From assembly GCA_020248265.1 (NCBI GenBank), contig JADCHX010000016.1, forward strand, positions 1-43,100: a DNA stretch of 43,100 nt. The letters are read 5' to 3'. Source of the stretch: Rhodocyclaceae bacterium. Lineage in GTDB: Bacteria > Pseudomonadota > Gammaproteobacteria > Burkholderiales > CAIKXV01. A program made the translations under genes and the position numbers. Numbering within the stretch: the stretch's first letter is position 1; each line of letters begins with the position of its first letter. Below, in pieces: positions 1,171 through 43,100 of this stretch. Under the pieces are notes generated by a model. That model was not told the DNA's origin, did no database searches, and worked only from the letters and a program-made list of their open reading frames with translations.

Positions 1171-4100
1171 GGTGGTGTAGCTCCAGGTCGAACCGGTGAC
1201 CGTCGCGCTTCCGAGCCGAGTGTCGCCGTCATAAACGGCAACTACCCCTGTGCCGAGCGTGCCGGTGATCGCCCCCGTGAGGGTCGGTGTGACATCGTCG
1301 GTGCGCCCGCCGGACGCCACCGGCCCAGTGAACAAACCCGCGTCGTCCGTGATGCCGGTGATGCTCGTCGTCGCCGCTGGGAGCGCCGCGTCGACGGTGA
1401 CCGCGTATTGGGTGCCGGTCGCCCCGCTGTTGCCGGCGCGGTCCTCGACCGCTGCGGTGAATCGGTGAACGGCGTTGGACAGGCCTGCCGTCGCAAATGT
1501 CCAGTTTGTGCCAGTGACCTGCGCGGTCCCGAGGCGCACGCCGTCGTCGTAGACTGCCACCACATCGCCCGGGGCGAGCGCCGCGCTGACGGTGCCCGCG
1601 ACCTGAAGCGTGTTGTCCGAGGTAAGCCCCCCGACCGCGACGGTCGTCCCGGGAACCCCGGCCGAGTCGGTGTTCCGGACTGCCGTCACCGCGGCTGTGG
1701 ATGTCGGGGCGGTCGTGTCGAGGGTAAAGCCACCGACGCTGCTCGGCGAGCTCGAGTTGCCCGCCACGTCGGTCACCACGGTAGACACCGTTACCGCTCC
1801 ATCGCCCAGCGTCGCACGCTGGGCCGCATTGAGCGTCACCGCCTGGGCACTGCCGTTACCGGTCAGCGTACGGCTCACCGTACCGGAGGCACCGGTGAGG
1901 GTGACGGCGATCTCGGCACCCGACTCCGCGCTCACCGACAGCACGCCGGACGGCGCCGTTGCCTCCGCAGCGGTGAGGAACCCGTCGCCGACCCCGACGA
2001 TGACCGGAGTGGGCGGCGTGAGATCGACGATGACCCTGCCAGGGAGCGCTGAAGGTGCACTCGCGTTGCCGGCGGCATCGACTTGCCGCACCAGGATCGC
2101 GCCGCTGGTGTACGCGCCCGCCGGCAGCGAGAAGGCAGTGCCGCTGCCCGCGAGCCACTGCGCGTCATTGTCGAGGCTGTACTGCCAGTTCGCCCCCGAC
2201 TCCAGCCCGGTGATCACGACGCTCGGGTCGCGGGTCACCCGGTCGATTGCGCTGCGACCAGTGTCCTGGGCGAGCGCGGCGATCAGCGTACCCGGTGCGA
2301 CGGTGTCGAGTACGAACCCACCTTCGGTACGCGTCGTCGCATTGCCCGCTGCGTCGACGCTCTGGGTGCTGGCGGTGACGCTACCCTGCCCGAGTGCCGC
2401 GAGGTCGGCGGGCGACAGCACGACCGAGACGGTGCCGGCGGCCACCGCTTTGGTGACCGTTCCGCTGCTGCCGGCGAACACTACACTGGTCGTGGCGCCG
2501 CTCTCCGAGACCACGCGAACCACCCCGGTTGCTGCGGCGGCTTCCGCCGCGGTCAACTGACCGTCGTGCAGCGGCGTGACGCTCAGCGTGGGCGCGAGCG
2601 TGTCGAGCGTGAATGCACCCTGGCTCCTCGATACCGCGTTGCCGGCTGCGTCTGTCGCCGTGGTCTGCACGGTAACGGCGCCCTGGCCAAGCTGTGCCAC
2701 GTCCGCGGCATTCAGGACCACGGCCTGCGCCGTGCTGTCGCCGACGAGCGTCTTCGCCACCGTTCCTGCAGTGCCGGTGAACTGTACGGTCACCGCTGCG
2801 CCCGGCTCGGCGTTCACCCGGATGACGCCTTGCGCAGCGGTCGCTTCCGAAAGGGTCTTGGCGTTGTCGCCGACCGCCACCACTCCGAGTGCTGGATCAC
2901 CGGTGTCGAGCACGAAACTGCCCATCGAGCGCAGACGGACATTGCCCGCCGCGTCGGTGGCCCTGGCGAGGATGCTGACCGGCCCCTCGCCGAGGGTGAC
3001 GAGTTCGGTCACGGACAGCGCATCCACCGTCTGTGCGGCACCCGTCGCCGCGAGGCTGCGCGTGACGGTGCCCAGCGAACCGCTGAGGGACACGTTCACG
3101 GCGGCACCGGACTCGGCGGTGACCGTGAGGAAGGGTGCGGTCGCTTCGGCGCGGGTCCTTGCTGCGTCGCCGGAGTCGGTTACCGCGAGGGCCGGTGCAG
3201 TGGTGTCGAGGGTGTAGCTGCGCGCGGTCTCAGGACCCTTGTTGCCGGCAAGGTCACTCACCTGCAGGCGGATGGTGTTCGCACCCGGAACCAGCGTCAC
3301 CCCGGCCCACGACACGGTGGTGCCGCTGACCGAGGCGGTGATGTCGGTCCGCGGGGTGCCGCCGTCTACCGAGGCGAAGAGGCGCTCGGAGGGGGCAAGC
3401 GGCGCACTCAGCGTCGCGGTCACCGTCTGCGCCGCGCTGCGGGTGAGGAAGTCGGTGCTGCTGCTGCCGGTATCGGCGGAGAGCGCGATGGCCGAGATCG
3501 TCGTGACCGGTGCCACGGTGTCGATACGCACGACGAGGGACGAGGATGCCGTACTCGTGTTGCCAGCGAGGTCTACGATCTTCGCGGTGAGCGCGCGGTC
3601 GCCGTCGAGCAACGTTCCGGAAGCGATGTCGACATAGCCGTTGTCGATGTTCGTTTCGGTGAGTACCGTGCTGCCGACGAGCCCGCCGTCGGCGAAGAGC
3701 TGTACCGTGTTGCCCGTGGTTGCCGCCTGGCCGTCGGTCCGGGCGACATCGAAGCGCACCCGCAGCGTCGGGGCGGCGGAGGCGGTGATGTCGTCGCTGC
3801 TCGACGAGCCGCTGTCGGACTGCGGACGCAGGTCGGGCGCCTGGGTCGGGGCGAGCGGAGCGATCGTGTCGAGAATGTCCGCCTGGGCCTGGGTGATCGC
3901 GTTGAGGTCGGTGGCAGCCGCGATCTCGACGGTGGCGTTGCTTATCTCCGTGTCCGGGCGGGTGGTGGCCGGACCGGCGGCGGTGAGCAGCGCAGGTCCG
4001 AGATCGACCGAGGGCCCGCCGGCGGTGACCGCCGACACGAGGTTGTCGAACACCTCGTTCGATGCCTGGGTACCGTCGAGCCCTGCCGCAGGTGCCGATG

Positions 4101-9518: not shown

Positions 9519-9607
9519 CTGACTTTGCGAGGGGAAAAATGATACCCACAGACCACTGATTGAAGTCAACAAGATTACCCGCCATCCCGCGCACTGCCTG
9601 GAGCCGC

Positions 9608-9703
9608 ATGTGGCGGCCGACGGCCTACCGCTTCAAGGTCTATCATGCGATTCAGGTCGAAGAAAACGAATCGCTGTTTCCGGTGACGCTCGCTATGCGC
9701 TGA
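9608..9703 (+). other. Short frame before the first Bug gene, possibly a gene remnant
   Basis: ATG at 9608 opens a 31-codon frame with protein-like composition (RFKVYHAIQVEENESLFPV) ending in TGA at 9703, 22 bases before the Bug start. It has no ribosome-binding site. It could be the tail of a lost gene or a chance frame; no family is recognised. Confidence 0.2.
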
Positions 9704-38731: not shown

Positions 38732-39490
38732 ATGGATTCAAATTCCCGTCACCAGATCCTCAAGCGCCTGCAGACAGGTCTTGCCCGTGGTGCGCCGTTC
38801 GACCTGAGCACCCTGGCACGGATCGGAGTGTCTGCCCCGCTGGCTGCGCGCTACGCCGAAAGCGGCTGGCTAGTGCGCCTGGCACAGGGCGTGTACGCCT
38901 TCCCGAAGGACGATTTCGGGGTGTACGGCGCACTGATGTTCCTGCAACAGCGCGTGCCCGGGCTGCACATCGGCGGCAAGAGTGCGCTGGCGCTGCAGGG
39001 CGTTCGACACAACCTGGGCGTCCGCGAGCCCCTGGTACTTTGGGGTGATGTCCGCTTCGCCCTGCCCGACTGGTTCACCTCGAGGTTTCCCGCACGCTAC
39101 GTGCACGCGCGCTTGTTCGACTGGCCGGATGAGACGTTGCCAGCCAGGACCGTGGTGACGCCCGCCGGGCTGCCCGACGGACTGCGCGTGTCGGCATCGG
39201 AGCGCGCCGTGCTGGAGCTGCTGTACGACGTCGGCACCCGCCAGAGCCTGGATGAGGCTCGCAACCTGTTCGACGGGGTGCGTTCGCCTCGCAAGGAACT
39301 GATGGGCCAGTTGCTGGCCAGTTGCACCAACGTGAAGACCGTGCGGCTCTTCCTGACGTGGGCCCGTGAGAGCGGCCTGCTGGACGTGGACGATCTGCGC
39401 GCTCGCTACCCGCTGCGCACCGGCAGCGACAAGCGCTGGATGAGCCGGATGCCCGACGGCACCTTGTTGACGCTCAAGCCCCATGGATAA
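38732..39490 (+). CDS. AbiEi-family antitoxin of a type IV toxin-antitoxin system
   Basis: This 252-residue protein has an N-terminal winged-helix DNA-binding part (LARIGVSAPLAARYAESGWL, VRLAQGVYAFPKDD) followed by the AbiEi central and C-terminal domain (GLHIGGKSALALQGVRHNLG, PARTVVTPAGLPDGLRVSAS, ERAVLELLYDV). AbiEi proteins repress their operon and antagonise the nucleotidyltransferase toxin AbiEii; the pair gives phage abortive infection in some hosts. Its stop overlaps the toxin ATG by 8 bases. The sequence is complete. No Shine-Dalgarno is seen before its ATG. Confidence 0.82.
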   Translation: MDSNSRHQILKRLQTGLARGAPFDLSTLARIGVSAPLAARYAESGWLVRLAQGVYAFPKDDFGVYGALMFLQQRVPGLHIGGKSALALQGVRHNLGVREPLVLWGDVRFALPDWFTSRFPARYVHARLFDWPDETLPARTVVTPAGLPDGLRVSASERAVLELLYDVGTRQSLDEARNLFDGVRSPRKELMGQLLASCTNVKTVRLFLTWARESGLLDVDDLRARYPLRTGSDKRWMSRMPDGTLLTLKPHG

Positions 39491-40304
39491 GGGCTACGCG
39501 GACACCGTCCGCCTGTTGCTGACCGTCGCGCCCGAGGTGTTCGCCAACGACATCTTCGCGATGAAGGGCGGCACGGCGATCAACCTGTTCGTGCAGGACA
39601 TGCCTCGCCTGTCGGTGGACATCGACGTCGTGTTCCAGCCGAGGCAGATGCCGCGGGACGAAGCCGTGGCCGCAATCGACGCTGAGCTTGCCGCCATCGG
39701 GCAACGTGTCGCGTCTCTGGGTCTGCGGGCGCGGCGCTTGCGCGGCGCGGACGCCATCGACACCAAGCTGATCGTCGAGTTCGATGCTCCGATCCTGGCA
39801 CGCGACGAGCTGTATGCCGGCAAGCTGGTGGCAGCACTCGACCGGCAGCACCCGCGAGACCTCTTCGACGTTTAGCAGCATTACGAATCGGGCGGCCTGA
39901 CCGACGCCATGGTCGAGTGTTTCGTGGTCTACCTCGCGGGCCACAACCCGCCGCTGCACGAAGTGCTCTTCGGCAATGACAAGGACATCGCTGCCGATTA
40001 CGAACGCGCTTTCGCAGGCATGACAGAAGTGCCGTGCACGCTCGATACCCTGCGCGCCGCCCGCGCCCGACTGCGGCTTGAGTTGCCACACCCCCTGACT
40101 GCCATGCACCGGCAGTTCCTGAGTGGACTGGTGCGCGCCGAGCCGGACTGGTCTTTGATGCAGTACCCCCACGCGGCAGAGCTGCCGGCCCTGCGTTGGA
40201 AGCTCGCCAACCTGGAGACTTTCCGAAAACGACGGCCCGCGGATTTCCAAGCCCAGGCCGAGGCGCTCGATGCCGGCCTGAATCGCGTCGGTGCGCTACG
40301 ATGA
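39483..40304 (+). pseudogene. AbiEii nucleotidyltransferase toxin with in-frame TAG
   Basis: From ATG 39483 the frame has the nucleotidyltransferase motif MKGGTAINLFV and the metal Asp pair SVDIDVVF, then RLRGADAIDTKLIVEF and LARDELYAGKLVAALDRQHP with RDLFDV. A TAG at 39873-39875 (codon 131) ends it. In the same frame the protein would continue with QHYESGGLTDAMVECFVVYL to a TGA at 40304, giving a full-length AbiEii of about 272 residues. All catalytic motifs are before the stop, but the C-terminal helical part is lost. Readthrough would need a suppressor; the toxin is probably inactive. It abuts the intact AbiEi. Confidence 0.78.
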
Positions 40305-41055: not shown

Positions 41056-41417
41056 CACCCGGATCGCCAGAGACGAGGACAGCTTCACCACGCTCAGCCG
41101 GAGGAATGCGACCGGCCGGGGACATTGCAATCGCTGCTCGGCCGAGTCCTGACATTCGAATGTCCGCTCGAGACTGGTTGCGGACGTTCGGACTTGGTCG
41201 GTGAATGTCGGCGATCGCCGATACCTGCCGTTGGCCAACTTCTCTGGCGGCTGTCCGCTGTGCCTCGGAACTTGACGCTCGGCGGCCGCGGAGCGCATAG
41301 GCGGGTCAGCGGCTCGGCGACGACGTCCGGCAAACGACTGCTCCCACTGGAGTCGAGCGGTCGCTGCCGACCCAAAGCCGAAGTCTGCCTAGGCGAGTGA
41401 GTTGCCCAAAAGCCGTC
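41056..41417. other. Non-coding stretch beside the attC-like site
   Basis: About 360 bases without a supported gene. It includes a short hairpin (GTCCGC/GCGGAC near 41162) and an exact 14-bp palindrome TCGGCGATCGCCGA at 41208-41221. Many short direct and inverted stretches make it look like decayed mobile or intergenic mosaic DNA of the type that often flanks cassettes. Confidence 0.5.
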
Positions 41418-41531
41418 GCTCAACGTGAAGGTGACCGGCACGTTGCGGCAAGGCGCCGCGAGGCTCCGTCGGATATCCTGCACCTCGCGGCGCCTTGCCG
41501 CAACGTGTCCGAGTCGAACGACCTGTTAGAC
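41418..41531 (-). other. attC-like recombination site (integron cassette)
   Basis: Read on the minus strand, in the sense of the gene beside it, the site starts with GTCTAAC (41531-41525, fits RYYYAAC), then AGGTC and GTTCGAC, an exact 25-bp inverted repeat (41507-41483 with 41463-41439) around a 19-base loop, then CCGGTCACCTTCAC and GTTGAGC (41424-41418, fits GTTRRRY). The outer parts pair only imperfectly and leave unpaired bases, as expected of attC. Total length is 114 bp, within the 57-141 range. It begins 26 bases after the stop of the minus-strand gene, the correct side and orientation for a cassette attC. Confidence 0.7.
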
Positions 41532-41556
41532 CGCTGCTCGTGCGTGACACGGTTGC

Positions 41557-42753
41557 TCATGGGTTGCTCGAGCCACTCAAAAACGGAACGAGGCGATCAT
41601 TTATGAAGTGATTCGGCCGCCAACCTTTCAGGAGTTTCTCGATCAGGAAGTTATCGAAGAGCCCTGCCGCGAATCCAGCCATCGGATTCGTTGCGTCTGC
41701 GGCTAGGGTGAGCAGATATCTGATTACCTTTGACCTCGGTGTCTGTATCCAGTCTTGAGAGGAGATGGTGCGCAAATACTCACGTGCCAGCCCCTCGTCG
41801 GGGTTTGTTGACTTGAGCCACTCTCGAAACTTTGCCGACTTATCCAAGAGGATCATAAACTCCTGAAACGATCTTGCTCCAGAATCCACTTGTTCCGCGA
41901 CAGTAGGCATGTCTGGCAGAACCACCTCAGAAAAGTCTTGACGCGCCTTCGCGTTCATCTGTGAGCGCTTCAGCAGCACGTCCACCTTCAAGCGAATTAC
42001 CGAGGACGTCACTGCAGACGTCACGAAGTCTCCTCCGTAGTGCGCAGCAAGTGCAAGGTCCGCGCGGGCGTCTTGAACGTGACTCAAGATGTGGGCTGTC
42101 GTAAGTGGTTCTACAGAGGGCGTCATCGCCGCTCGGGCGCGATTAACTCGTTCGTAGTCGACGTTGTCGAAGAAGAAGAAGCCCTGCTGGCCCTTAATGA
42201 TTTCAACCTTCAAGTCGGGGCCAGGGCGATAGCCTCCAGTCGTCCGGGCAAGGATCTCGGAGAAAGCGGTCGTCAGATACGCGGTGTCGTTCAGATCGCT
42301 GCGAGTTGCCTCAGGAATCCCGCCTTGTATGAAGTGGTTGCCGCTCATCTTTCGGATAGGGACTAGCCTCAGAAACGCCTCTGCGAACTTCTTTGACTGG
42401 TTTTTCGCAATGCCGCTCAGCTCAAGCTCATGCCTCAAGCGAGCTTCAGGGGTACCCAGTTTCTCCCCGGCAGCAGTTCCCGACAGAGTGAATGCGACGA
42501 AGTCGTGACACTGTGACACACCCACCGAATTGGTCATTGTTGCCAGCATTTCCTCGGTGTACACCGCCGAGAAGTCGGCACGTGCCACGAGCGACAACAG
42601 ACCTGAAGCTCCGATTTGACGAAGAAGCTCGAACAGGGTCTGCCGGTCGATGACGAGGTGCACCTTCTGATAGAACAGAAGCGCCTCTGCGATCTGACCC
42701 GCGGAAATTGGGTTCCCAGATTCGGCGCGACGAAGAACGACATGATCAAACAT
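41557..42753 (-). CDS. Unknown protein in a probable integron gene cassette
   Basis: This 398-residue protein matches no family I recognise. It is soluble, without signal peptide or membrane span, and rich in helices (GQIAEALLFYQKVHLVIDRQ, DLALAAHYGGDFVTSAVTSS). A Phe-rich strand (QQGFFFFDNVDYERV) is unusual. A 60-base sample inside it is 52 percent GC against 68 percent in the SEC-C gene beside it. The ATG is 10 bases after a GTTAGAC core and the stop is 26 bases before the attC-like site, both typical of a cassette gene. No Shine-Dalgarno is seen. I infer mobile-cassette origin; the function is unknown, defence or stress being only guesses. Confidence 0.7.
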   Translation of the reverse strand: MFDHVVLRRAESGNPISAGQIAEALLFYQKVHLVIDRQTLFELLRQIGASGLLSLVARADFSAVYTEEMLATMTNSVGVSQCHDFVAFTLSGTAAGEKLGTPEARLRHELELSGIAKNQSKKFAEAFLRLVPIRKMSGNHFIQGGIPEATRSDLNDTAYLTTAFSEILARTTGGYRPGPDLKVEIIKGQQGFFFFDNVDYERVNRARAAMTPSVEPLTTAHILSHVQDARADLALAAHYGGDFVTSAVTSSVIRLKVDVLLKRSQMNAKARQDFSEVVLPDMPTVAEQVDSGARSFQEFMILLDKSAKFREWLKSTNPDEGLAREYLRTISSQDWIQTPRSKVIRYLLTLAADATNPMAGFAAGLFDNFLIEKLLKGWRPNHFINDRLVPFLSGSSNP

Positions 42754-42763
42754 AGAACCTGCG

Positions 42764-42770
42764 GTCTAAC
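42764..42770 (-). other. GTTRRRY core at the cassette's 5' boundary
   Basis: On the minus strand GTTAGAC, followed by C and then GCAGGTTCT ATG, fits the R' core where cassettes join (cut after the first G). The matching RYYYAAC box of an upstream attC is not found in the next 150 bases; the end of the IS element there may have removed it. Confidence 0.5.
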
Positions 42771-42919
42771 GAAGCTGTGCAAAAACCCGGGTGGCAGCAC
42801 TCGCGAGCCGGGGTGATGTGATCGATTGGCGTTTCACGCCGTCTGGCTTCCTGGTTTGCATTTCTGCCTTCTGCAAGCGCTATGGATCGCTCTGTGGGGG
42901 CATGCTGCCCCGCGAGCCG

Positions 42920-43100
42920 TCACTGTAACTCGCATCTGGCCAGTTTCTCAATGTTGTGCACGAGGCAGAATAGTCGCCACTGGGTTCCGACCTTGTTCAG
43001 CCCGCGCAGCGTGAACCGGTTCAGGCGCTTGTTGTGCCGCAAGTTGCCGAACACCGGCTCCACGGTTCCGATCCGCTGGCTATAGCGACGCCTGCCCTCA
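42920..43100 (-). CDS. IS1182-type transposase, C-terminal part (5' end beyond the window)
   Basis: The minus-strand frame reads YSQRIGTVEPVFGNLRHNKR, LNRFTLRGLNKVGTQWRLFC and LVHNIEKLARCELQ to a TGA at 42920. This is the conserved end of IS1182-family DDE transposases, including the catalytic Glu in TVEPVFGN. The gene enters from the right edge, so the start and the other inverted repeat are not seen. The element end lies somewhere between the stop and 42770. Confidence 0.75.
   Translation of the reverse strand, partial: EGRRRYSQRIGTVEPVFGNLRHNKRLNRFTLRGLNKVGTQWRLFCLVHNIEKLARCELQ

Follow-up and report, generated by a model that had tools for sequence, protein, structure and literature searches.

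A lone attC site and its undescribed gene as a probable cassette of a decayed chromosomal integron in a Rhodocyclaceae bacterium

The attC sites of integrons are recognized by their R and L boxes, an extrahelical base and a crossover position at G/TT, each of which has an established role. Here we describe a candidate attC at 41418-41531, behind a single gene that we call P0001, in a stretch of 43,100 bp which makes up the whole of one contig (JADCHX010000016.1, here C16; hereafter the window) in the 33-contig genome of a Rhodocyclaceae bacterium (GCA_020248265.1; the source genome, G000). The closest described cases are attC sites that lack a nearby integrase; single sites of this kind can be real, and draft genomes split integrons across contigs (PMC9024848). 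The window is alike in having no integrase near its attC, but it carries one attC, fewer than the IntegronFinder 2 default of two, and the source genome has a broken intI and a second array of its own. A further comparison is with those sedentary chromosomal integrons in Xanthomonas whose intI is inactivated, for which PMC12444791 describes a conserved chromosomal locus, an often broken integrase and poorly annotated cassettes, all of which recur here. However, the source belongs to another bacterial order, and an intact integrase of a congener (G006:C406, L018 728-1672) is about 75% identical to the class 1 IntI1 of plasmids among the best 5000 records. Finally, the accessory genes that P2-like phages carry, Old/Tin among them, are single genes at the Q-A site or before S (PMC9122126, PMC3091744) and resemble P0001 in this respect, although P0001 and the three relatives tried match no known defence profile.

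For reference, attC-like sites were collected next to integron integrases, in 40 stretches taken from other genomes within the same order. Of the resulting 43 sites, 41 were used for a profile of the arms, two having been dropped beforehand (one later set of arms lacked 3 of the 41); the null for the profile consisted of 590 strict pairs from 400 dinucleotide shuffles, a strict candidate being an RYYYAAC...GTTRRRY pair 50-200 bases apart. A covariance model, R2, was trained on 22 attCs belonging to other genera, with the window site and its genus excluded; an earlier model, R1, had used the arms alone. The parts of the site are as follows.

41418..41531, minus strand: attC recombination site, 114 nucleotides (nt) (R2, arm profile, only strict candidate)
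41525..41531, minus strand: R'' box GTCTAAC (sequence; aligned to R2)
41513..41519, minus strand: L'' box GTTCGAC, with an unpaired C as the expected extrahelical base (sequence; layout shared with many collected attCs)
41483..41507, minus strand: 5' arm of the 25-bp perfect inner stem (inverted self-match 41439-41507; fold)
41439..41463, minus strand: 3' arm of the same stem (inverted self-match; fold)
41430..41435, minus strand: L' box GTCACC (sequence; covariance model alignment)
41418..41424, minus strand: R' box GTTGAGC, the presumed crossover side (G/TT) (sequence; GCTGAGC at the homologous place in contig C13 of congener G003)

The preliminary description had proposed a 114-bp attC-like site with both boxes and a 25-bp stem, correctly oriented and beginning 26 bases past the stop codon of the gene, and all of this is borne out. 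Read in gene orientation, the four boxes follow one another as R''-5 nt-L'' ... L'-5 nt-R', 41483-41507 pairs with 41439-41463 over 25 perfect bp, and the boxes, their spacing and the extrahelical base are those of an integron attC. Since 25 bases separate the stop codon from the site, the attC begins at base 26. It is the only strict pair in the window on either strand. R2 scored it at 35.0 bits with a rough expectation value (E) of 6.4e-6, a significant match of the kind that had been sought, against 13.9 bits for the runner-up in the window. With the arm profile the site scored 30.5 bits when read in gene orientation but 3.25 bits when read the other way; none of the 590 shuffled strict pairs reached 30.5 bits, and the site outscored 8 of the 41 collected attCs, each scored when left out. 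R1 matched only a fragment (8.2 bits), and it likewise failed to find four further sites, of 114-129 nt, in L041, L043 and L083. By all of these sequence tests, 41418-41531 is a genuine attC, oriented correctly behind one gene. The attC is real and so, very probably, is the cassette.

41557..42753, minus strand: cassette gene P0001, 398 amino acids, undescribed family (open reading frame; without a match in four profile libraries)

A single gene with an attC at its 3' end in the same orientation has the makeup of a gene cassette. The gene had been noted as low in GC and of unknown function, and indeed its GC content is 54.9% against 67.0% for the window, and it matches nothing in Pfam, PADLOC, PHROG or NCBIfam; no family among the PADLOC defence profiles was hit at E up to 1. 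Judged by these library searches rather than by a search of the literature, the P0001 family appears to be undescribed. What we describe is a known kind of element, attC plus cassette, with a gene family that has no profile in the four libraries. The 16 relatives found comprise three from named genomes (identities of 58, 51 and 39%), one from a plasmid of Buttiauxella (34%), two from the same order (a fragment and a distant homolog), one from the phylum and nine from distinct viral contigs; a collection of 50,697 phage records held none at E up to 1e-5. The GC content of the gene was lower than that of its flanks in all 12 of the 16 relatives' loci for which it was computed. An AlphaFold2 model from 11 sequences had a mean predicted local distance difference test (pLDDT) score of 74.5, good over approximately residues 1-250 and poor from residue 315, and its similarity to solved structures was too weak to name a fold.

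Other integron parts lie elsewhere in the genome. The end of contig C4 matches the integron integrase family above the curated cut-off; this integrase is broken, with a disrupted frame and the stretch bearing the HxxR box absent, a lesion common to congener G005, while the copy in G008 is intact. The intI locus is syntenic in the source genome, G003, G005, G006, G008 and G009, and in the attI-like stretch upstream of the integrase six genomes share the sequence as far as a GTT core, with divergence immediately beyond; on C4 this stretch is then apparently followed by another insertion sequence (IS) up to the contig end. Contig C13 of the source genome starts within an array, whose attC matches lie at 44-139, 570-636, 1209-1269, 1892-2005 and 3163-3234 and one doubtful match at 2529-2727; the whole-genome covariance search recovered three of them. 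At E up to 0.1, covariance-model matches occur in 10 of the 11 genomes of the genus, the source included, and an array in G002 holds a related attC half-site (95% over 41 nt). A complete integron, with intact intI, attI and array, was not recovered, intI being broken and on another contig.

The border at the attC was compared with that in the congener whose R' box is given above; the parts at the two ends of the cassette are as follows.

41367..41417, no strand: flank past the attC, homologous to the flank past the last attC seen in the array on G003:C13 (85% along 60 bp, R' box included)
42764..42770, minus strand: GTTAGAC, a possible core remnant at the cassette 5' border, partly within or touching the IS end (compared with the IS copy on C18)
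42770..43100, minus strand: IS end with a DDE_Tnp_1_6 transposase fragment, the contig stopping inside it (border uncertain by a few bases; Pfam PF13751)

Over 60 bp (41367-41426), the R' box together with the adjoining flank is 85% matched by G003:C13, where a glyoxalase-like cassette is followed by an attC (R' box GCTGAGC) that has the same end point and is preceded by another attC. A homologous flank next to differing last cassettes implies that one border bears different cassettes in two genomes, as seen in one congener and over 60 bp of homology; farther out the flank is not collinear with G003:C13, and 41170-41382 matches a different G003 contig. The window had been taken for a case of an attC without integrase. 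This holds within the window, where the integrase is lacking because the contig, at exactly 43,100 bp, ends inside an IS, but the genome itself holds the degraded integrase on C4, the attI-like stretch and the second array on C13. Taken together, these parts look like fragments of a sedentary chromosomal integron that was split by ISs and by assembly. We consider it probable that the window attC and its gene are a cassette of this decayed integron, with its broken integrase and other cassettes elsewhere in the genome. The P0001 gene would have entered in a circular cassette, with IntI acting on the attC as a folded bottom strand and crossing over at G/TT; an IS would later have inserted at the 5' border and, with IntI dead, the cassette would now be fixed in place. 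A seemingly orphan attC in a draft genome can thus lead back to a decayed integron located on other contigs.

Several observations qualify this reading. The GTTAGAC ahead of the ATG, which the preliminary description had taken as the other border, is present as stated. It abuts the IS, however, and the CT[A/G]AC at 42766-42770 recurs with one difference beside another IS copy at the end of contig C18, so that the IS or its target may account for up to five of the seven bases. The motif is therefore no independent proof of a cassette border, and as evidence for one it is weak. In addition, the relatives of P0001 argue against a family made up of cassettes: at 14 loci checked with the covariance model (all but L111 and L115), 13 had no attC adjoining the gene. 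The refuting condition set in the preliminary description, the gene in unrelated genomes with no attC at its 3' end, thus applies to nearly all relatives examined. The exception is a distant homolog of 21% identity in G246:C1 (L107, 9646-10836), where an attC match of 29.1 bits at 9591-9651 overlaps the stop codon. Matches that do not adjoin the gene were not counted (L013, 21.2 bits; L047, 22.8 bits; L014 and L052, weaker), and the contig bearing the fragment at its start (L038) held no attC at E up to 0.5 along its whole length. The family is therefore not confined to integrons and moves by other means too. Genes without an attC elsewhere do not refute the cassette, because the window attC was shown independently, and the window case is the capture of a P0001-family gene into an integron. 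Three alternative explanations are taken up below, the first of which concerns what the gene does.

The positions of the relatives in phages suggest a possible function. Among the nine viral loci, six (L049, L050, L052, L053, L054 and L115) have the gene antisense between the P2-like genes V and S, which were sought in all nine by tblastn with V and S of L050 and identified by PHROG. In L051 it lies between the portal gene and gpA, in L047 between the portal and terminase genes, and in L048 beside an open reading frame (ORF) of 1616 amino acids for which the top PHROG matches have no known function, with DarB-like antirestriction among the lesser ones. The Q-A site of P2 is described as an anti-phage hotspot of single accessory genes, Old/Tin included (PMC9122126), and the portal-gpA position in L051 is this same hotspot. 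Directly before S, one P2-like phage carries Old and another a DNA methylase (PMC3091744). From the prophage positions of its relatives, we tentatively propose a single-gene anti-phage role for P0001, at somewhat less than an even chance. The product, with a predicted N-terminal alpha/beta domain and a predicted helical C-terminal part, would most likely act alone against phages, by superinfection exclusion or abortive infection. It is conceivable, again with the balance slightly against it, that P0001 founds a new family of single-gene anti-phage proteins that moves among integron cassettes, a plasmid and the accessory hotspots of prophages, integrons and P2-like phages sharing one pool of defence genes. 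Work on Vibrio cholerae cited in PMC12444791 found that 20% of cassettes without a predicted function encode anti-phage systems, a figure which makes cassettes like that of P0001 worth testing; its relatives form a compact, testable candidate family, represented both in P2-like prophages and in a cassette of an integron.

On the other hand, there is an even chance that P0001 is not a defence gene at all, being instead another prophage or host-physiology gene or a neutral passenger. The protein lacks a known defence profile or a domain hinting at one, as do the three relatives tried with regard to profiles of known defence proteins; the P2 hotspot carries non-defence genes too (PMC9122126); and the cassette proteins of Xanthomonas are, in the account given by PMC12444791, mostly of unknown function. 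What speaks for defence is that members of the family, single genes of low GC content, recur at several accessory positions across different phages, including the Q-A hotspot.

The second alternative is that an integrase put a lone cassette into a secondary, non-integron site of the chromosome and that it never stood in an array here. The contig does show only one attC, and the G246 homolog likewise has a lone attC among ordinary-looking chromosomal genes, their kinds having been read from ORFs. However, the flank past the R' box is homologous to that past the last attC of the G003 array, which has at least two attCs, and the source genome has an integron of its own, which makes such an insertion unlikely in comparison with descent from the decayed integron. 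Hardly credible is the third, that the hairpin is an ordinary terminator or an IS-related inverted repeat resembling an attC by chance: the stem is long, perfect and GC-rich, and 26 of the 590 shuffled pairs also folded with at least 60% symmetry, but none matched the arm score, the covariance score has no near competitor in the window and 114-nt attCs are known elsewhere in the genus, so that it is refuted as far as sequence goes.

The surroundings of the cassette agree with what had been noted, namely an IS end and toxin modules. The PF13751 match at 42935-43099 has an E of 2.1e-14. The last 141 bases of the window are identical to the start of contig C25, which is thus its likely, though not certain, continuation; C25 carries (L040 828-1451) a short tyrosine recombinase, an ORF of 207 amino acids with a Phage_integrase match, beside apparent nested IS remnants. 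At 38732-39875, an AbiE locus comprises the gene for an AbiEi antitoxin and, after it, an ORF that in its best stretch aligns with no more than positions 2-68 of the AbiEii profile (238 positions), approximately its first third, and the AbiEii toxin may be truncated or frame-broken. The segment at 41170-41382 belongs to a non-coding repeat dispersed in the genus (80-88% identity) that occurs near the array end and elsewhere (L040 5520-5583, L029 1501-1713). A lone attC-like site of 28.1 bits lies on C4 far from the intI end (G000:C4:664587-664659, L109 4588-4660). Within the C13 array of the source genome (L095 692-1170), a DUF433 gene is followed by a toxin-like ORF, and similar pairs are apparently present in G005 and G009.
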